NCBI GenBank assembly: GCA_012523035.1
Contig: JAAYJH010000029.1
Span: 1 to 39,655 of the forward strand
Reading direction: 5' to 3'
Length of the DNA: 39,655 nt
Origin: Fibrobacter sp.
GTDB lineage: Bacteria > Fibrobacterota > Fibrobacteria > Fibrobacterales > Fibrobacteraceae
Shown: positions 4,592-35,937 of the stretch, one piece after another
Position numbering within the stretch: the stretch's first letter is position 1
Layout: each line of letters opens with the position of its first letter
Notes under the pieces: generated by a model
Databases searched by the model: none
Told to the model about the DNA's origin: nothing
Seen by the model: only the letters and a program-made list of their open reading frames with translations
Position numbers and translations under genes: made by a program

Positions 4592-7111
4592 TCAATGCTT
4601 CACCAAACGATGCACCGAACGATCTATTGAAATGAGATAAAGTCCTGCTCTTAAATTTTGCAAGTTTATTTCTGTGCTCCCCTGCTCTTTCGTGTTCAAA
4701 ATCGCTCTGTATTGGAGTTGCCCTCTAAGGTCGTGGATTTGTACTTGAATTGGTTTTGAATGAGACTTAAAGTAAAGTAAGAGTTTTGAGTTTTCTATTC
4801 TCCAATGATATTCTTTAAAGTTTGGACTGTGCAGCTTCACCGGTGGGATTCCAGGGTCTTCTGTATTGCTAGAGGCTTCGAAAACTGTTTCGGAAGACCA
4901 CGCACTCCATTTTAGATTTTTATCGCGATACCGTACACGCCAAGCATAGGTTTTGGATTCTATTAAGGGGTCTTCGATGCTCAAAGCCCGAAGATTGATG
5001 CCTTTGTTTAAATCAATTGGAGTGTAACTGGGTGCCCCTGTAGATGAAAATATGTTTTCGTAATCCCTTAAAATGCTTACAATGGGAGCGGAGTAATCTC
5101 CTGGTTTTTCTGTGAGCTGAAACTCTGAACTCATCAGTTCATCTGGACCTTGATATTCACTCGCGATCAAAGTGGGTTTTAATGCTCCCAATATCTTGGG
5201 GCTTAGTGCTTCTGGCGTTTCGGGAGCGGCTTGTGTCTTTTTTCCGTAAAAGTAGTCTTGTAAAAATGGTTCCGTGTTTTTTCTGTCAGAGACCCCTAAA
5301 CTGTAGACTTTGACTTCGTATGTTTTGCTTTCTATGTCCACTTCTAAAATGGCAAAATGAGAACCTTCTATGCTTCTGTGAGTTTGAGCCCAATCAGTGG
5401 CATCGGAGTTTTCTGTCCAATAATCAAGCCAGCCTCCTGCTGGGCCTAAGATAAGCGTTCTAAAATCTGTGCCGTGTTCGGATTGTATCACCCCTCTTTC
5501 GTAAGCATGCGTGTGACCATGACTGGCCATCACCACTTTTGGATAGCGAGCTAAAAGTGGATAAACGGTGTTTTGCATCCATTTATTGTTGGCGTCTTGC
5601 CACATTTCACTTTTTCCTGGGTGGTGAGCATTGATAAACACAAAATCTATGGTGCTTTCTGCTTCTGCTTCTATTAGTTTAGCTTCTAACCAATCTGTCT
5701 GTTTTTCATCTGTATTTGTTTCTGAATTTAAGGTGATAAATAAACTGTTTGCAAGCCTAAAAGAATAGTATTTTTTGTTTAATTGAGGGTCCAAAGGGTA
5801 TGCCGAAAATTCATCGTATTTTAAAAATTGATAATACAGGTCTGGAGGCGAAGTGTATAAATCATGGTTTCCCATGCTAGTCATAAAAGGAACATGAGCT
5901 GCCAATGGCGATATAAAAGACCCATAAAATAGCAACAACTCATCCATAGAAGCATTTTGGAACACATCTCCATTGTTAATAATACAATGTACTTTTTGAT
6001 ACCATTCTTCTCCATACAAGTCTTGAAAAGTGTGTATCATGGCTTTTAAAACTTCACCAGCATTTCGATCGGCCCCAATGTGAATGTCGCTGTTCATGGC
6101 TATGACTAGTTTTCCGCTAGACTCTGGTGCCGTACTGAAAGCCAGTACTTTAGAAGAGTCGGTACCACTCACCACTTGATAGTAATAAGTGCTTGCTGGG
6201 TCTAGGTTTTCTAATTTAACACTATGCAAGCCCTTTGTCTTGACTTTTTCAAAGCTGGTCGTTTTAGAAAAACTCAAAGCTTCAGGGTTTTTGCCATAAT
6301 TTACTTTTCCAGTGCCATGATCCGATAAATAACTAATATACATGGAGCTCGAGGTAGGGCTTTGTAAAAAAGGTTTTAATTTAGGCTCTGTATTGAAACC
6401 CCCTAAGTCTTCAACTTCTTTGTTGCTAAGTGCCCTATCCCAAATTACAATCGAAGAAAGGACCACTCCTGTGTGTTCTGCATTGTCATCCGCAAAAAAA
6501 TAAAAGGCGTTGTTTACAGGGAGAGCAAATCGACCATCTATTCCTTGTCCCTTTTGACTCACTTCCATACTTCCATCAAAAAATAACTTCCAAGCTCCAG
6601 TGTTTGGATCGTTGTCGCATACATAAACCAAACGAATCCACTCTTCTGGAACCAAAGTTCTAGAGCTGTATGTGGTAGCCCCTAAACCCACTCTTCCACT
6701 TGGATCTATAAAAAGATCAGCATCATCTCCTTTTGGATTGGTGTTTGTTTGTAATAAACTATTATAGACCCCTATAGCCGAGACTTTCAAATCCATTAAA
6801 ATAGTGTATTGATTGACCTTGCTACCGCCCCCATTTGCTTTTAATTGAGGATTCACCTTTAAATAAAAATCACTTTGTTTTGCCGGAGTAATCACAGCAC
6901 CGTCTGTGTCAGAGAAACCCTTTGTCCATGTTAAAGAACCAGAGATTTCAAGAGGATTTTTGTGTTGGGAGCTGTCTAAACCCAAATTAGAAGAAACATC
7001 AAAAGCATAATAAGCTTTGATGTCGCTCCAATCTGCCATTTTAAAAGAAGTCTTGCCAAAAGAAAAAACAGCCAATGATAAAAAGCAAAAAGAAAAGAGC
7101 TTATGTGACAT
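4592..7111 (-). CDS. Secreted multidomain metallophosphoesterase, purple-acid-phosphatase type, type IX-like C-terminus
   Basis: Start set at the ATG at 7111 (AGAGG just upstream; opens into a signal peptide), giving 839 residues; a longer TTG-initiated reading is less likely. Order of parts: signal peptide; LamG/concanavalin-like region (about 25-225); fibronectin-III-like domain (about 235-325), as in purple acid phosphatases; calcineurin-type phosphoesterase (about 335-570); a second Fn3-like region with YAWRVRY; C-terminal domain (about 765-839). The metal-binding series is complete: SDIHIG, NNGDVF, MGNHD, NAHHPG and SHGHTHAYERG. The C-terminus has beta-strands with DLRGQ and LRAGLYLISI, resembling type IX secretion sorting domains. 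It probably hydrolyses phosphate esters outside the cell; the substrate is unknown. Confidence 0.88.
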   Translation of the reverse strand: MSHKLFSFCFLSLAVFSFGKTSFKMADWSDIKAYYAFDVSSNLGLDSSQHKNPLEISGSLTWTKGFSDTDGAVITPAKQSDFYLKVNPQLKANGGGSKVNQYTILMDLKVSAIGVYNSLLQTNTNPKGDDADLFIDPSGRVGLGATTYSSRTLVPEEWIRLVYVCDNDPNTGAWKLFFDGSMEVSQKGQGIDGRFALPVNNAFYFFADDNAEHTGVVLSSIVIWDRALSNKEVEDLGGFNTEPKLKPFLQSPTSSSMYISYLSDHGTGKVNYGKNPEALSFSKTTSFEKVKTKGLHSVKLENLDPASTYYYQVVSGTDSSKVLAFSTAPESSGKLVIAMNSDIHIGADRNAGEVLKAMIHTFQDLYGEEWYQKVHCIINNGDVFQNASMDELLLFYGSFISPLAAHVPFMTSMGNHDLYTSPPDLYYQFLKYDEFSAYPLDPQLNKKYYSFRLANSLFITLNSETNTDEKQTDWLEAKLIEAEAESTIDFVFINAHHPGKSEMWQDANNKWMQNTVYPLLARYPKVVMASHGHTHAYERGVIQSEHGTDFRTLILGPAGGWLDYWTENSDATDWAQTHRSIEGSHFAILEVDIESKTYEVKVYSLGVSDRKNTEPFLQDYFYGKKTQAAPETPEALSPKILGALKPTLIASEYQGPDELMSSEFQLTEKPGDYSAPIVSILRDYENIFSSTGAPSYTPIDLNKGINLRALSIEDPLIESKTYAWRVRYRDKNLKWSAWSSETVFEASSNTEDPGIPPVKLHSPNFKEYHWRIENSKLLLYFKSHSKPIQVQIHDLRGQLQYRAILNTKEQGSTEINLQNLRAGLYLISIDRSVHRLVKH

Positions 7112-7226
7112 AAGACCTCTAAGTACAAAAGACCAGACCAATTTTACTCCACTCTTTTAGATATAGATTATTTAAGTTTTCTATGCAATAGGAATTTAAT
7201 GCTCTTGGCAAGCTAAAAACAAAGCT

Positions 7227-11143: not shown

Positions 11144-13336
11144 ATGAAACACTTCCGTCACGCATTGTTCTTCATTTTATTTGCTTTTTTACTCACTCCT
11201 GCAAGTGAACTTTGGTTCAAAGAAATTTATTTTCCACTCGGGAAAATAAAAGTTTATAAACCCGAGGTAGAAACTCTATCTGAAAATTTAATGGAAAGTA
11301 GATCGACTGTTATCCTAGAACTTCAAGGGAGCAAGGCTATTTTTGGGGCTGTATGGTTTGAAAGCAGTATTTTAACAGATTTTGATAGCCGAAGCATCAC
11401 TTTAATGGACGCCGCCATTACCGCCAGCAAATACCCTAACCTCGACAAAAACACTATTGAAACCATTAACCTAGCCATAGAAAACGATGTTCCCAAATGG
11501 TCTTTAGAATATTCTTTAGATGAAGTGCTAGCTCGTATCCATTACAAACCAGACTCTGAATTAGATTTACAAAACAATGCCCCACAAATTTTACTCGCCA
11601 CTGAACCCACGGCATTAATTTTAATCAATGGAAAGCCCATATTCCAAGATCTAGAAAACACCAATTTACAGTTTGTGGTGAACACTCCCTTTTTAATCGT
11701 CAAAGATAAATCACAAAATCAATATTACATCAAAGGCGGAAAGTACTGGTATCAATCTGGAGATTTATACAAAGGATACCACTTTGCCAAACAAATTCCA
11801 AAAGCATTATTAGAACTAAAGAATGACAAAAACCCAAAAGACACCTCCTCCCAAATCCTTTCTCATTTTATAATCAGCACCGAAGAAACCGAACTGATAC
11901 AGTCCAACGGCACTCCCGAATTTGCTCCCATCGCCAATACAGGGCTTCTCTACATGAAAAACACCGATAGCGATGTGATTTTAAATATTGAAACTCAAGA
12001 ATACTTTGTTTTACTCTCGGGCAGGTGGTACAAATCCACAGAGCTCATTTCTGACACTTGGACATTTGTATCTCCAGACTCCCTGCCTAGCGATTTTAAA
12101 AATATTGACGAATCCAGCCCTGTTAGCAACCTTAGGGCTCATGTGAGCGGGACCAAAGAAGCAAAAGCAGCTGTTTTAGAAAGCCTGATCCCTCAAACAG
12201 CCGAAATACCCAGAACAGAAAGCATAGAAGTTGTTTACGACGGCAAACCCACTTTTAAAAAAATAGAAGGCACCAATTTATTATATGCACTCAATACGGA
12301 CAAAGATGTTCTATATGTGAACGGCTCTTTTTATGCTTGCGAAAATGCGGTTTGGTACATTAGCAAAAATCCTCAGGGACCTTGGGAGGTTTCTACCCAC
12401 AGACCCACTGGTGTCGAAGACATTTCTTTACAATACCCCATCCATCGTGTTAAATATGTCTATGTCTATGACTATACTCCAAGCACAGTCGTAGTTGGAT
12501 ATTACCCCCCTTACTATAACAGTTATATTTATCGAGGCACCATTGTTTATGGCTCTGGCTATTATTACAAACCTTGGTACAAAAATCATTATTATGCTTA
12601 TCCCATGACCTATGGGTATGGAGCCTACTACAGTCCTTATTCTGGTTGGTCTTTTTCTTATGGACTCTCTTATGGTGGATACTATTGGCTCCATCACGAC
12701 GACTATTTTTATAGAAACTATTACCGTGGTATATGGGGGAATCGTGGGTACCGCTACTACCCAAATAGGCCTTCACACTTAGACTCTCGCCGTGGCTATC
12801 ACTATAAAAACAAAAAAAACACACAAGTCCATTACAAAGACATTGTAAACACCCCTCGTTATAAAAGAGCATCTAGCAACAATTTATATCAAAACACCAA
12901 GCAAATCAAAAAAACTTTGCCAACACGAAACTTAAACACCCCAAAAACTCCTATCCAAACCAACAAAAGCCAAAACACCCATCGGATTCGTTTACAAAGC
13001 ACCGATCGCCCCAGAAGCAGCTGGCAAGGTGTAAGCCCTAGAGAAAAAACAAATCCACAACCCTTAATCAGCCCCAAAAAAATAAATCCCTTTGAAACTT
13101 ATACCGAAGATAGGCCCAGACCTCAGCCCAATCGATACGAAGCAAGCCCCAATAAAGAGCCTTTACAAACTTCTCCCCGAGAAAATCCTCGAAACACAGA
13201 AAACCCTTCTAATAAAACACAAAGCCCTTCAACACAACGGCCTTCAACACAACGGCCTTCAAATAACACAAAGTCCAGAGAAGCAAGCTCCCCGTCTCCA
13301 ATCACGGCCCCTCGCATTGATAGAAGAGGGCGATAA
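11144..13336 (+). CDS. Large secreted protein with three repeated domains and Tyr-rich region
   Basis: 730 residues with a signal peptide (to about residue 21) and GAGGG before the ATG. After a 120-residue N-terminal region there are three related units at about 149-221, 244-320 and 358-430. Each follows the pattern NGxPxFxxIxxTxLLYxxNT, a central DV strand, then G-x-WY and a closing Trp. Next comes a strikingly Tyr/Gly-rich stretch (about 432-545: VVVGYYPPYYNSYIYRG, YGSGYYYKPWY), then a basic, Pro/Asn/Ser/Thr-rich tail ending in tandem PSTQR units. Similar proteins in Acidobacteria and Bacteroidetes are, as I recall, labelled 'carbohydrate-binding family V/XII', without biochemical support known to me. 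It is probably a cell-surface or matrix-associated protein; function is unknown. Confidence 0.75.
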   Translation: MKHFRHALFFILFAFLLTPASELWFKEIYFPLGKIKVYKPEVETLSENLMESRSTVILELQGSKAIFGAVWFESSILTDFDSRSITLMDAAITASKYPNLDKNTIETINLAIENDVPKWSLEYSLDEVLARIHYKPDSELDLQNNAPQILLATEPTALILINGKPIFQDLENTNLQFVVNTPFLIVKDKSQNQYYIKGGKYWYQSGDLYKGYHFAKQIPKALLELKNDKNPKDTSSQILSHFIISTEETELIQSNGTPEFAPIANTGLLYMKNTDSDVILNIETQEYFVLLSGRWYKSTELISDTWTFVSPDSLPSDFKNIDESSPVSNLRAHVSGTKEAKAAVLESLIPQTAEIPRTESIEVVYDGKPTFKKIEGTNLLYALNTDKDVLYVNGSFYACENAVWYISKNPQGPWEVSTHRPTGVEDISLQYPIHRVKYVYVYDYTPSTVVVGYYPPYYNSYIYRGTIVYGSGYYYKPWYKNHYYAYPMTYGYGAYYSPYSGWSFSYGLSYGGYYWLHHDDYFYRNYYRGIWGNRGYRYYPNRPSHLDSRRGYHYKNKKNTQVHYKDIVNTPRYKRASSNNLYQNTKQIKKTLPTRNLNTPKTPIQTNKSQNTHRIRLQSTDRPRSSWQGVSPREKTNPQPLISPKKINPFETYTEDRPRPQPNRYEASPNKEPLQTSPRENPRNTENPSNKTQSPSTQRPSTQRPSNNTKSREASSPSPITAPRIDRRGR
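13226..13260 (+). repeat. 15-bp tandem repeat coding for PSTQR units
   Basis: CCTTCAACACAACGG occurs twice in tandem (13226-13240, 13241-13255) and begins a third time (13256-13260). It stays in frame and encodes repeated Pro-Ser-Thr-Gln-Arg in the disordered tail of the gene at 11144. It looks like slipped-strand expansion. Confidence 0.85.
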
Positions 13337-31860: not shown

Positions 31861-32427
31861 ATGGATCTTTCTGTGATTTTGATAATTATATTGATTCTTC
31901 TTTTGTCGATTGCATTAGTTGCAATTGGTGCGTATATTATTATAAATTCTGCCGACGAAAAAGAACAAATCACACAACAAATCGATATATCTGGTCAATA
32001 CGCTGTATTGGTAAAACCCGCCAAAGAATCTTTGAAGTCTGTGAAACCGTCTATAAATGAAATTAAAAACTGGCTTTCTTCACAAAACATTGATGATAAA
32101 AACTCACAAAGTCTAATAGAGACTTGGACACATTCATTGAACGAAACCATCAAAACTGTAGACGAAGGAGACCAAAATGGCACTGTGACCTATCGAGTGG
32201 TTCCAGGTGAAAAATGCCAGAAATTTTGTTCTTTTATCAATAAAGATAACTATATTACTCGAGAACAAATCCGCAACCACCCCGAAATTTTACCACCCTT
32301 TGTTTTGGGTTGTGATTGTAAATTGGTTCCAAAATTTCCTTGGGAAAATCCTGGTAAAGCGGGATGGAAGCCTGTGATTCCTGTAAATGGGGTTTACAAA
32401 GTCCCCGATTGGAGAAACATTGCGTAA
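31861..32427 (+). CDS. Small single-span membrane protein with four cysteines, unknown
   Basis: 188 residues; TTAGGA precedes the ATG. One hydrophobic helix at about residues 4-27, then a soluble domain of about 160 residues. Its second half carries C-x-x-x-C (EKCQKFC) and C-x-C (GCDCKL), which could form disulfides if periplasmic or bind a metal. I recognise no family. The final codons overlap the start of the PorV-like gene by eight bases (TTGCGTAA at 32420-32427), so the two are translationally coupled and may work together at the envelope. Confidence 0.7.
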   Translation: MDLSVILIIILILLLSIALVAIGAYIIINSADEKEQITQQIDISGQYAVLVKPAKESLKSVKPSINEIKNWLSSQNIDDKNSQSLIETWTHSLNETIKTVDEGDQNGTVTYRVVPGEKCQKFCSFINKDNYITREQIRNHPEILPPFVLGCDCKLVPKFPWENPGKAGWKPVIPVNGVYKVPDWRNIA

Positions 32428-34588
32428 ATCAACTCTTTTTATTTTATTTTTACTGACAAGCTTGTTGTGGGCCAAAGGTTCTGCAATCATCACACTAGAG
32501 ATGCCTATAGGAGCCAGACAACTTGGTATGGGTGAAACGGGGGCCGCCGTTGCAGACGATGCAGCGAGTCTTTATTATAACCCTGCTGGACTTGCTTTTG
32601 GACCACTTGCCGATGAATGGCTCACTTCTTATTATAAGCCTTCTAAATCTGGTCCTTTTTTTACTGCTTTGGCTGCTCGTACTAGGCCTGGTTTTTTTGC
32701 TAAAAGCGAACTTTGGGCAGGAACTAATGAAGGTGTGCTTCACTTTAATGGAGATCGTTGGGTGGAATACCATTCCGTGCTTTTAGAGGGCAACACCAAA
32801 ATCCGTGATGTGGTGCGAGTTTTTGTTGGTTCCGAAAGAGGCTTAGATGAATATACTAGACAAGTTAAAAAATACAATAATGCTGATGAAAATGAAAAGC
32901 ATTTGGTCGAGGTTCGAATCCCATGGAACTTGTATTTAAAAGATACAGTGACTGCTTTACTCTATGAATCCAGAACAGAAAAACTTTGGGTAGGTACACC
33001 CAAAGGCTTGTTTCGTTTTGATGGTAAAACTTGGAAGTCTTTTGAGTCTGAATTTGGAGCCAAAAGAATTACTGCCTTAGACAATCAAGGAGCTAGCTTG
33101 TGGATCGGTACTGATGATGGTCTTTTTTTGTACCGAAATGGTCGCTTTGAGCAAAAAGGAGTGGTGCTCCCTAGTCAAAAAATTGAATCTGTGGTGTGGT
33201 CCGAAATGCGTAAAGAATTATTTGTGGCGGTTAAAGAAGCGGGAATCGCTAGGCTGATTCCTAAGAAAAACCCCCAAGACAAAGACCGATGGAGTCTTTT
33301 TACAGAAGAAGATGGTATTATTGATCTTGAACCTAAAAAACTGGCCGTAGATAGTTCTGGTCATGTTTGGGCTGTGCACAAAAGTGGGCTTTCTCATTTT
33401 AATTTAAGAAAATGGGAACAAATCCAATTCGATCATAATGTGGTGCACGATGTTTCTGTAGATAAAAAGGGAGCCATTTGGATTGCAACTCAAAAAGGAG
33501 TTTGGAGACACTTACCTGATTATGCCACAGCAAGTGGTAAAAAGGCAGAACTCGAAAGAGAAGTTGGAGAAAAAGAAAATACCAGTAAAGAAGATTGGCA
33601 CCACTATCACTCTGGAAATGGACTTTCTAGCAACCAAGTTTGGACGGTATTGCCGCAAGGGAACGATGTTTGGTTTAGCACTAACAACGGTGTAGAGCAA
33701 TACAAAGATGCCGATTATCAAGTGAGCTTTTTTTACGAAAAACTTTTGCCGATTTTAAATATCCCAGACCTTTATCATTTATTTGCTTCTATGACAGTTC
33801 CATTGGCAGAATGGGGTACTTTGGGCTTTTTCGTTAATTTTATTTCTTTTGGCTCTACCCTTGTTTCTGATGAGTTTTCTAGCGATGAGCTGGTGGCTTA
33901 TAATAGTTCCGAAATCGTGGGTGGCTTAAGCTATGGGACACAATTAATCAATCGCTGGGCTTTAGGGGTGAATGTTAAACTTTTTTATTCTGACCTTAGC
34001 TCTGGCTCTGCAGGTGAAGAAGCGACCACTTTTGGATACGCCTTTGATGTGGGTTTATTAAAAAAAGATCTTTTTATCAAGCGTTTGAACTTTGCCGCCA
34101 TCCTTGCCAACATAGGGCCTAGCGTGTATTATGTAGATAAATCTATAGAAGACCCTATCCCTTTGACATGGCGTTTGGGGCTTGCTTACGAGATATTGTC
34201 TTCTGTGGACCATCGTCTATTGGTTGCCGCCGATTATAATCGAGAAGCAGTGTTTGACAATGAAAAAGGTCAGCCAGAGCCGTTTTACATCTCTTCTTGG
34301 AAATCTATAGTGAAGCCAGAACTAGGGGGTCACGGTTTTACTGCCGCTAAGAACTCATTGTTGCAAGGCGTTTTTAATTTGGGTGCCGAATACACCTATG
34401 CTAATACGGTTGCTCTCCGAATGGGCTACCTCTATGACCGTACTGGTAAAAGACAAGAAATGGATTTGGGTTTTGGATTTATGCTCTCCGATGTTTTGCA
34501 GTTTAACTTTGCAACCATTAAAGATGTCGGTAATAACGATGGTGTTAGAGACGGACAAATGCGTTTTGGACTTCTTTTTAATTTTTAA
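32420..34588 (+). CDS. PorV/PorQ-like outer-membrane barrel with inserted beta-propeller
   Basis: Start chosen at TTG 32420: GGAG lies five bases upstream and the product begins with a normal signal peptide (MRKSTLFILFLLTSLLWAKG); the ATG at 32387 would spoil it. 722 residues. The mature N-terminus has the PorV/PorQ signature GARQLGMGETGAAVADDAASLYYNPAGLA. Instead of continuing as a barrel, a region of about 330 residues (about 75-410) follows, with repeated propeller strands such as LWVGTPKGLFRFDGKTW, LWIGTDDGLFLYRNGRF and IWIATQKGVWRHL, of two-component-regulator propeller type. The barrel then resumes (about 440-722) and ends in Phe. PorV relatives handle type IX cargo; here a ligand- or cargo-sensing role is inferred. 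Confidence 0.85.
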   Translation: MRKSTLFILFLLTSLLWAKGSAIITLEMPIGARQLGMGETGAAVADDAASLYYNPAGLAFGPLADEWLTSYYKPSKSGPFFTALAARTRPGFFAKSELWAGTNEGVLHFNGDRWVEYHSVLLEGNTKIRDVVRVFVGSERGLDEYTRQVKKYNNADENEKHLVEVRIPWNLYLKDTVTALLYESRTEKLWVGTPKGLFRFDGKTWKSFESEFGAKRITALDNQGASLWIGTDDGLFLYRNGRFEQKGVVLPSQKIESVVWSEMRKELFVAVKEAGIARLIPKKNPQDKDRWSLFTEEDGIIDLEPKKLAVDSSGHVWAVHKSGLSHFNLRKWEQIQFDHNVVHDVSVDKKGAIWIATQKGVWRHLPDYATASGKKAELEREVGEKENTSKEDWHHYHSGNGLSSNQVWTVLPQGNDVWFSTNNGVEQYKDADYQVSFFYEKLLPILNIPDLYHLFASMTVPLAEWGTLGFFVNFISFGSTLVSDEFSSDELVAYNSSEIVGGLSYGTQLINRWALGVNVKLFYSDLSSGSAGEEATTFGYAFDVGLLKKDLFIKRLNFAAILANIGPSVYYVDKSIEDPIPLTWRLGLAYEILSSVDHRLLVAADYNREAVFDNEKGQPEPFYISSWKSIVKPELGGHGFTAAKNSLLQGVFNLGAEYTYANTVALRMGYLYDRTGKRQEMDLGFGFMLSDVLQFNFATIKDVGNNDGVRDGQMRFGLLFNF

Positions 34589-34629: not shown

Positions 34630-35937
34630 ATGCGATATGTATCCTTGTTTTTTTTATTAAGCACTCAATTTTTATTTGGCCTTCCAAGTACAGAAGAAGT
34701 TTTTTGGTGGTGGGATGACGGTTTAATTTCTTATGAAGAACTCGAAGATTTTTTAGAGGCTATTAGTAAAGAAGACACAGAAAGTTTTTGTGATCTTCAA
34801 CTGGCCTATCTCAATCAAAAGTGTGCTGCTCAGGCAAAAGAAAAAAAATATCGGACTCAATATGCAGAGTTCCATTGGAAAAGTGATATTGACTCCACCG
34901 CTCATTTGCAAAATCAAAAGTTTCACTTAAAAATGTTTTATCAACCCTTTCAAATGGACCTTTACTCCGACACTTCCTTTGCTATCACCTATAAAAGAAA
35001 GCAAAATCGAGCTGTTTTGGGTGATATTAGCTATAGTTACTTTAAGGCTGGTTTGCCTCTACAAAAACAGAAAGGCTACTTTGGAAGGTATTATATCCAT
35101 AAAAACTCTATAGCTGCATTTTTAGGTTTTGATCAAAACTTGAGTTTTCAAGTACAATTAGCAAAAAAAGAGAGCCACTTTTATTTTCAATCTTATCGTA
35201 ATGAAAATAAACACTTTATTCTTTTTCGATACCAACATAAAGTTTTAGATGCGATTTTATTTTATGATTTTTTTCAAAAGTCTCCTTTGGTGCGTTTTAG
35301 GTTAAAACAAAGCAAACAAAAAAATACAAATTGGGCTTGGAATGCAGATTTTTATATTCTAGAACAAGCACCGCAAGAATGGCCTCTAAAACTCCCCAAA
35401 AGTATCGCTCAATCTTCTTTTTGGTCTGCACAAAACCAAGATTTTTTCTTGTCTATTTTTAAGTTTTCATTCCAAGAAAAATGGCGTTTAGATGTTGAAT
35501 CTAAAGAACACTTCACTTCGCTCCAAGGGGCTCTCACTATGTATTTTAATGAAGCTATTGTAGAGGGGGCTTTGCAATGTAGGGAAGTTAAAAACAAATG
35601 CGAAAAACCACTTATTCGTTTGAAAGCACAAAAAACACACTTTAAAACATTTAAAAGTATCTTAAAAATGCGATTGATGGCTCCTGATTGGTACGAATTA
35701 AAGCACCGACCACAAATTATTTTAGGGTTTTCAATGCATCCAGAAAAAGGAGTTTTATTTAAAAACGAATTTATCCTCCCAGAGCAAAATAACACTAAAA
35801 AGATTTCATGGAGACAAACCAGTGAATATAAACCAAACAATCATTTTTCATTCCTTTGTTATTTCGAATCTTTTATTTCAAAAACATTTTTTATAGAAGC
35901 CTATAGAACCAGTTTATCTTTATCTCTGTATTGGTAA
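34630..35937 (+). CDS. Putative outer-membrane protein, unknown family
   Basis: 435 residues; AAGGAT precedes the ATG and a signal peptide (to about residue 17) follows. An N-terminal acidic helical region (EEVFWWWDDGLISYEELEDFLEAI) resembles an 'opening helix' motif seen in some FCB envelope proteins with helix-hairpin-helix-like parts. From about residue 65 the protein shows alternating aromatic and polar strands (FHLKMFYQPFQMDLYS, HFYFQSYRNENKHFILFRY, LSLSLYW at the end), which fits a beta-barrel ending in an aromatic residue. It follows the PorV-like gene by 41 bp and is closed by a strong terminator, so it is probably in the same operon. Function unknown. Confidence 0.7.
   Translation: MRYVSLFFLLSTQFLFGLPSTEEVFWWWDDGLISYEELEDFLEAISKEDTESFCDLQLAYLNQKCAAQAKEKKYRTQYAEFHWKSDIDSTAHLQNQKFHLKMFYQPFQMDLYSDTSFAITYKRKQNRAVLGDISYSYFKAGLPLQKQKGYFGRYYIHKNSIAAFLGFDQNLSFQVQLAKKESHFYFQSYRNENKHFILFRYQHKVLDAILFYDFFQKSPLVRFRLKQSKQKNTNWAWNADFYILEQAPQEWPLKLPKSIAQSSFWSAQNQDFFLSIFKFSFQEKWRLDVESKEHFTSLQGALTMYFNEAIVEGALQCREVKNKCEKPLIRLKAQKTHFKTFKSILKMRLMAPDWYELKHRPQIILGFSMHPEKGVLFKNEFILPEQNNTKKISWRQTSEYKPNNHFSFLCYFESFISKTFFIEAYRTSLSLSLYW

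Follow-up and report, generated by a model that had tools for sequence, protein, structure and literature searches.

How a carrier of the type IX secretion system (T9SS) could work with a beta-propeller built into it, and on which side of the outer membrane such a propeller would lie, are questions raised by one gene in a contig of Fibrobacter sp. (GenBank assembly GCA_012523035.1, contig JAAYJH010000029.1, positions 1 to 39,655 of the forward strand; this whole stretch of 39,655 nucleotides is hereafter the window). The gene, at 32420-34588 (+), encodes a protein of 722 aa, propeller-PorV, in which a PorV-type N-terminal signature and a PorV-type barrel are separated by a seven-bladed propeller. 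Its architecture, its conservation throughout the phylum Fibrobacterota and its place in the T9SS gene set are well supported, and the likeliest role of the propeller, as far as function can be inferred, is that of a periplasmic dock or cell-wall tether.

Domain architecture

The protein runs in the order signal peptide, PorV N-terminal signature, seven-bladed Reg_prop propeller and PorV barrel. A signal peptide region recognized by eye (aa 1-21, 32420-32482) is the least conserved part (conservation 0.41), and is followed by the signature or hatch (aa 22-61, 32483-32602; ITLxMPxGARxLGMGE...NPAGL), the most conserved one (0.75), which is matched by the PorVQ2 model at aa 26-59 and by the N-terminal piece of the PorV_fam match. 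The propeller (aa 67-430, 32618-33709) is delimited by Reg_prop, by an AlphaFold2 (AF2) model and its VIA-align comparisons, and by the repeat layout as read by eye, with a LysM-like module, degenerate in this genome, between blades 1 and 2 (aa 118-172, 32771-32935). The barrel (aa 433-722, 33716-34585), with 14 inferred strands and a phenylalanine as its last residue, is recognized by NF033709, NF033710 and the PorV structure 6h3i. Conservation reaches 0.64 in blade 2, 0.60 in blade 7 and 0.58 in the barrel, and lies between 0.46 and 0.55 in the other blades.

Membership in the PorV/PorQ family is given by curated models: the protein scores 166 bits with NCBIfam NF033709 (PorV_fam; E 1.3e-48, cut-off 90), in two pieces of which the larger covers aa 428-722, and 35.5 bits with Pfam PorV (PF19572; 1e-8, cut-off 27). 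Reg_prop falls between the two pieces of the NF033709 match, and the original prediction, that a propeller interrupts a barrel of the PorV family, was borne out. Its three-part order also stood, while the limits moved: the propeller is slightly wider than the 330 residues first given (around aa 67-430, some 365 aa) and the barrel starts earlier, at about aa 433 instead of 440. Sequences in the PDB divide along the same lines, with the propeller sensors 4a2l, 3ott and 3v9f matching the middle of the protein and the PorV 6h3i matching its end.

As for the start of the gene, the open reading frame (ORF) lister opens the frame earlier, with an ATG at 32387, but the TTG at 32420 looks right. It is preceded by a GGAG at 32411-32414, five bases upstream, and a script whose pattern itself seeks such starts found GGAG and TTG in 12 of 13 family loci, L036 being the one that does not fit and L061 and L032 being the same contig.

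Fold of the propeller

Pfam Reg_prop matches the protein with an E of 3.5e-11, and seven blades were counted in the sequence, the repeat layout being set by eye. An AF2 model of aa 62-436, built from four sequences, reached a mean predicted local distance difference test (pLDDT) of 63 and a predicted template modelling score (pTM) of 0.69, with blades 2-5 mostly at 75-92 and low values at the edges of blades 1, 6 and 7 and in the inserted module between the first two blades. Seven-bladed propellers include virginiamycin B lyase and RACK1. When aa 67-433 of the model were superposed with VIA-align on the lyase (2z2n), 270 residues were aligned with a Z of 27.5 and a root-mean-square deviation of 2.7, and RACK1 (4aow) gave a Z of 26.6, so that the model describes a predicted closed fold of seven blades. 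Foldseek placed the periplasmic sensor domain of BT4663 (4a2l) at rank 1 and PorZ (5m11) at rank 18.

An invariant tryptophan, W67, lies at the N-terminal edge of the propeller, where the outer strand of blade 7 would fall. Judged from the repeat, in a region of low model confidence, this strand probably completes blade 7; if so, the chain would both enter and leave the propeller at this blade. The flanking linkers have about five residues each, aa 62-66 towards the hatch and aa 429-432 towards strand 1 of the barrel, and the domain held between them has a mass of some 40 kDa.

Occurrence and history in the phylum

We searched a set of 200 related genomes, the window's own included, of which 167 belong to the phylum and 33 lie outside it. 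The protein was matched at 1e-10 in 168 of the 200 and in 161 of the 167 in-phylum genomes, a count of matches irrespective of layout, since weak, partial or split ones (for instance in G114 and G146) were left unaligned; the six in-phylum genomes with no match are all less than 85% complete. The closest named matches come from Fibrobacteria, Fibrobacter and Fibrobacteraceae metagenome-assembled genomes, with 73-81% identity. Layout was followed in an alignment of the window protein with 31 others from 26 genera, hand-picked as one to three representatives per genus. Hatch, propeller and barrel each contain invariant columns, and the N-terminal signature occurs in all 31 others. In each of the 32 proteins both Reg_prop and PorV of Pfam were matched, as were PorV_fam and T9SS_OM_PorV of NCBIfam (at 0.001). 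With an identical layout in 32 of 32, a chance or assembly fusion is ruled out. Propeller-PorV is thus a well-supported phylum-wide trait of Fibrobacterota, which the original prediction had not noticed, any more than its tie with the T9SS.

Outside the phylum the propeller layout was found in two genomes, G169 and G175, whose propellers have the inserted module in common with those of Fibrobacterota. In the barrel tree, however, both group with propeller-less out-of-phylum PorV proteins (support 96/94 and 95/78). A single propeller group was rejected when L089 was kept in the tree (approximately unbiased test, p-AU 3.9e-7), and was not rejected once L089 and three distant proteins of the window's own genome were taken out (p-AU 0.12). 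An ancient insertion followed by losses in certain lineages would fit this pattern, and so would transfer. L089 itself, from G137, is a propeller-less PorV copy of Fibrobacterota that falls among the propeller-bearing proteins at the end of a long branch, which is what loss of the propeller from a duplicate would look like. Mobile elements were scanned as well: viral contigs gave 31 pattern matches with no relative among them, and plasmid records gave six matches, of which the five listed cover parts of the propeller only, none over more than 80% of the query.

Probable identity as the carrier and the T9SS context

Is the protein PorV itself, or another barrel of the family? With the T9SS PorV equivalog NF033710, the best match was the propeller-bearing frame (733-955 aa) in all 30 genomes scanned, and at 1e-5 the propeller ORF was the sole match in 13 of 16 genomes of the window's class. 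Six other PorV-family proteins were found in the window's genome and five of them scanned (L068 was left out): two lie closer to PorQ, another two to PorV2, and one belongs to the general family only, the runner-up to NF033710 scoring 35.6 bits against 97.5 for the propeller protein.

A fusion of PorQ and PorZ, with the propeller doing the job of PorZ, the delivery protein of anionic lipopolysaccharide (A-LPS) that PorQ anchors, might have explained the domain pair. The PorZ model indeed matches the propeller weakly (2.4e-5, in 25 of the 32 members), and a PorZ match over the cut-off was found in none of the nine Fibrobacterota genomes searched. The barrel is nevertheless nearer PorV than PorQ, since the T9SS PorQ model NF033711 gave 37.2 bits, neither over its cut-off of 220 nor nearer than NF033710, and the genome encodes two further proteins that lie closer to PorQ (93 and 78 bits). 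The PorZ model NF052228 gave 23 bits for the window protein, below its cut-off of 260. Separate PorZ-model matches occur in 13 of 13 genomes searched; those of the nine Fibrobacterota score 28-95 bits against the same cut-off and are mostly confined to the sorting domain and the final blades, so that a true separate PorZ there is at most putative. PorZ itself works outside the cell (PMC8545088). Altogether we regard such a fusion as very unlikely.

The gene neighbourhood supplies the strongest point for PorV identity. In the out-of-phylum genomes G169 and G175, porU, propeller-PorV and a gene for an M6-like protein are consecutive, and in G173 and G167 the same order is kept around a propeller-less PorV; NF033707 (PorU) is over its cut-off directly upstream in all four, and the M6-like protein was identified by model in G169 and G173 and by blastp in G175 and G167. 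Within the phylum, neighbourhoods were surveyed at 28 of the 31 loci (L038, L039 and L041 were dropped, the gene caller having missed the target), and the M6-like gene lies directly downstream in all 11 loci outside the window's class, two of them model-checked. NCBIfam labels the M6-like family as T9SS-dependent and inactivated. Five members were scanned and score 313-358 bits against the family cut-off of 600; three of the five carry a sorting domain at 0.001, one of them over the cut-off of that domain. Found beside PorV both in and out of the phylum (for example L054:5475-9149 and L139:6084-9458), the M6-like protein is possibly a fixed partner of PorV.

The T9SS itself accompanies the protein. 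SprA was found in 165 of the 200 genomes, and within the phylum, where both are near-universal, their co-occurrence says little. Of the 33 genomes outside the phylum, seven have SprA, and these are the same seven that match the protein at 1e-10, an overlap expected by chance once in C(33,7), or about 2e-7, if genomes are treated as independent; in five of these seven the matched barrel has no propeller in frame. In the window's genome, propeller-PorV is the best PorV match alongside SprA, sorting-domain cargo (40 matches, 34 over the cut-off) and a C25/PorU-like protein, which is over the Pfam C25 cut-off and scores 353.5 bits with the PorU model, under its 420.

Several results speak against the identification. 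The 97.5 bits of the window protein fall well short of the NF033710 cut-off of 250, which is reached in none of the 30 genomes, and two propeller-less PorV proteins from outside the phylum also stay below it (208 and 213 bits). None of the 17 loci from the window's class has the M6-like gene as a neighbour, both that gene and the PorU-like one sit on other contigs in the window's genome, and the 11 deeper in-phylum loci have a small protein upstream, not PorU. One could also take the protein for a FadL-family barrel outside the T9SS, either a BamG-like subunit or a channel for hydrophobic compounds, which would resemble PorV by common descent. BamG is a FadL-fold barrel reported in six of seven further phyla of the Fibrobacteres-Chlorobi-Bacteroidetes (FCB) group (PMC12611786), and a weak Toluene_X/FadL match, under its cut-off, points in the same direction. 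Against such an origin stand the shared gene order with porU and the M6-like gene, the out-of-phylum co-occurrence with SprA and the rank of PorV as best model, and we hold it to be quite unlikely. The propeller protein is probably the T9SS carrier PorV.

Side of the membrane

On the basis of strands assigned by eye and of homology to 6h3i, the part after aa 433 is predicted to form a FadL-like barrel of 14 strands. With strand limits set by eye, 109 aa fall in the loops that follow odd strands, where all four in-barrel insertions of at least four residues also occur; the turns that follow even strands amount to 22 aa, with small gaps in some turns and no insertion of that length. An even count of strands, together with a phenylalanine at the C-terminus, implies that strand 1 begins on the periplasmic side; the propeller, placed between the hatch and strand 1 and therefore at the end with short turns, would then be periplasmic. 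Published FadL-fold barrels point the same way: their N-terminal tail runs through the pore (PMC12611786), and a domain inserted after it and ahead of strand 1 would emerge in the periplasm. The propeller thus probably faces inward, at the periplasmic opening of the barrel, and the sub-threshold LysM-like module fits this placement. The full-length AF2 model (window protein with L032-L034) lends the topology no help, since its pLDDT of 37.4 and pTM of 0.28 kept it out of use.

The original prediction had put the propeller in an early loop, as a large head on the surface. Its early insertion stands; the loop and the surface side are not supported, as the propeller precedes strand 1. A surface propeller acting as a glycan sensor or a cargo-docking head would find some echo in the nearest solved propellers, which are two-component sensor domains such as 4a2l and 3ott, and in the match to the surface protein PorZ (5m11). 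Yet the insertion lies before strand 1, at the end of short turns that hold no insertions of at least four residues, 4a2l, the closest homologue of known structure, is a periplasmic domain, and a LysM-like module suits the periplasm, all of which makes a surface head highly improbable.

The module between blades 1 and 2

A segment of 50-60 aa separates blades 1 and 2, and G169 and G175 carry extra copies between other blades. Three of eight family segments match Pfam LysM (PF01476), all below the cut-off of 20.9 bits: the in-phylum segment of L045 is the best, with 19.4 bits, and two segments of G175 reach 14 bits. The protein of G175 also matches NCBIfam YneA (27.9 bits, cut-off 60); YneA bears a LysM. 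In hhalign, the in-phylum segment gave 51% against 25 LysM segments from these genomes, an odd row (L127) having been dropped. Of 22 sliding windows, the two with the greatest overlap with the segment gave 57% and 22%, while none of the remaining 20 exceeded 2.4%. For the segments of G169 and G175 the values were 88% against LysM and 84% against the in-phylum segment.

To be set against a LysM origin, the window's own segment gave no match to Pfam LysM, none of the eight segments is over the cut-off, and the segments scanned were chosen by eye; the in-phylum segment of L042 and three segments of G169 had no match either. Taken together, these comparisons are suggestive of a degenerate LysM, more decayed in Fibrobacteraceae and somewhat clearer in some deeper lineages. 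Inserts in the protein vary between lineages too, with lengths of at most 200 aa following aa 159 and at most 143 aa following aa 213. Long inserts rich in Ala, Lys, Asp and Glu were seen within the propeller of L042, near alignment aa 213, and of L052, in the LysM-like region.

Proposed role of the propeller

The explanation that we favour, and consider somewhat better than an even bet, is a PorV carrier whose periplasmic propeller serves as a dock and whose LysM-like module serves as a wall tether. As the topology suggests, the propeller would hang from the periplasmic mouth of the barrel by its two linkers of about five residues, while the extracellular loops would remain free for the C-terminal domains of cargo inside SprA, as in Flavobacterium PorV. 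The propeller might then anchor the carrier to components of the translocon in the periplasm, and the LysM-like module may bind, or may once have bound, the carrier to the cell wall.

A PorV orthologue in which the propeller is merely a structural lid, for instance closing the periplasmic mouth with no docking or tethering, would be consistent with the short linkers on either side and with the lack of a LysM match for the Fibrobacteraceae segment. Blades 2 and 7, however, are conserved like the barrel, more than a plain lid needs, although this is a weak point given the lower values of the other blades, and we think a lid unlikely. Beyond the favoured dock and tether, a bolder step can be considered. 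PorV has been described as a shuttle that collects cargo at the SprA pore and moves it to the surface. The carrier of Fibrobacterota may instead not shuttle freely, if propeller and LysM-type modules fix it to the wall and to the periplasmic apparatus of the translocon; cargo would be handed over at a fixed station, with the propeller in place of the SkpA/SprE dish of Flavobacterium or of PorE of Porphyromonas. This we put forward tentatively, as conceivable and rather doubtful.

Neighbouring genes

Directly upstream, a 188-aa protein with an N-terminal transmembrane segment and a Cys-rich C-terminal motif is encoded at 31861-32427 (+), and the first 8 nt of propeller-PorV overlap its 3' end. 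Relatives occur directly upstream and on the same strand at 22 of the 28 loci; the protein weakly resembles phage protein VG15 (E 0.031, below the cut-off). The M6-like gene is followed by one for a Peptidase_MA and PD40 protein (L054:9159-11003, the one scanned, L135:1676-4741 and L136:524-3535), and blastp relatives come after it in G173 and G167 as well. Elsewhere in the window, 4592-7141 (-) encodes a metallophosphatase with a purple acid phosphatase N-domain and a T9SS sorting domain, and the ORFs at 34630-35937 (+; 435 aa) and 11144-13336 (+; 730 aa) gave no match in Pfam or NCBIfam at the thresholds applied.

Comparison with known systems

In the open-licence literature searched, as far as titles, abstract openings and some passages go, we found no description of a propeller-bearing PorV. 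Our results suggest that the T9SS of the Fibrobacter type is assembled differently from those studied. A domain of this size on the inner face of PorV would clash with, or replace, periplasmic parts of the Flavobacterium translocon. Propeller-PorV also offers a natural test of PorV's need for free movement. Since surface cellulases of Fibrobacter have been proposed as T9SS cargo (PMC6851124), the matter bears on how a main group of cellulose degraders of rumen and gut builds its surface.

A close known relative is PorV of Flavobacterium johnsoniae (6h3i, 8gl6 series), homologous in its N-terminal signature and barrel (profile E 1.2e-28 to 6h3i), in which there is no propeller and the hatch continues straight into strand 1. 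That protein is the T9SS carrier across the lateral opening of SprA, its outer loops contacting the C-terminal domains of cargo, and a helix of SkpA touches its base (PMC10994853). In the wider PorV/PorQ family of NF033709 our protein exceeds the cut-off, but with its match divided by the propeller.

Propellers are found in other proteins of the T9SS. PorE of Porphyromonas gingivalis (PG1058) is a periplasmic lipoprotein combining a propeller with a peptidoglycan-binding domain (PMC5053529, PMC7192894). It is a separate lipoprotein, five-bladed, with a binding domain of the OmpA type and no barrel, and the likeness proposed here is one of module pairs; in propeller-PorV a PorE-like pair would be built into the carrier itself. 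PorZ of P. gingivalis (5m11) does have homologous propeller repeats (profile 7.7e-8), although it has two propellers and a sorting domain, is extracellular and lacks a barrel. The nearest solved propeller, the periplasmic sensor domain of BT4663 (4a2l; E 2.9e-69 in sequence), belongs to a two-component sensor, unlike propeller-PorV. On the side of the barrel, FadL-like proteins of Treponema pallidum also join a FadL fold to added domains (PMC12369335); there the additions are TPR domains at the C-terminus, whereas the propeller of propeller-PorV lies between hatch and barrel.

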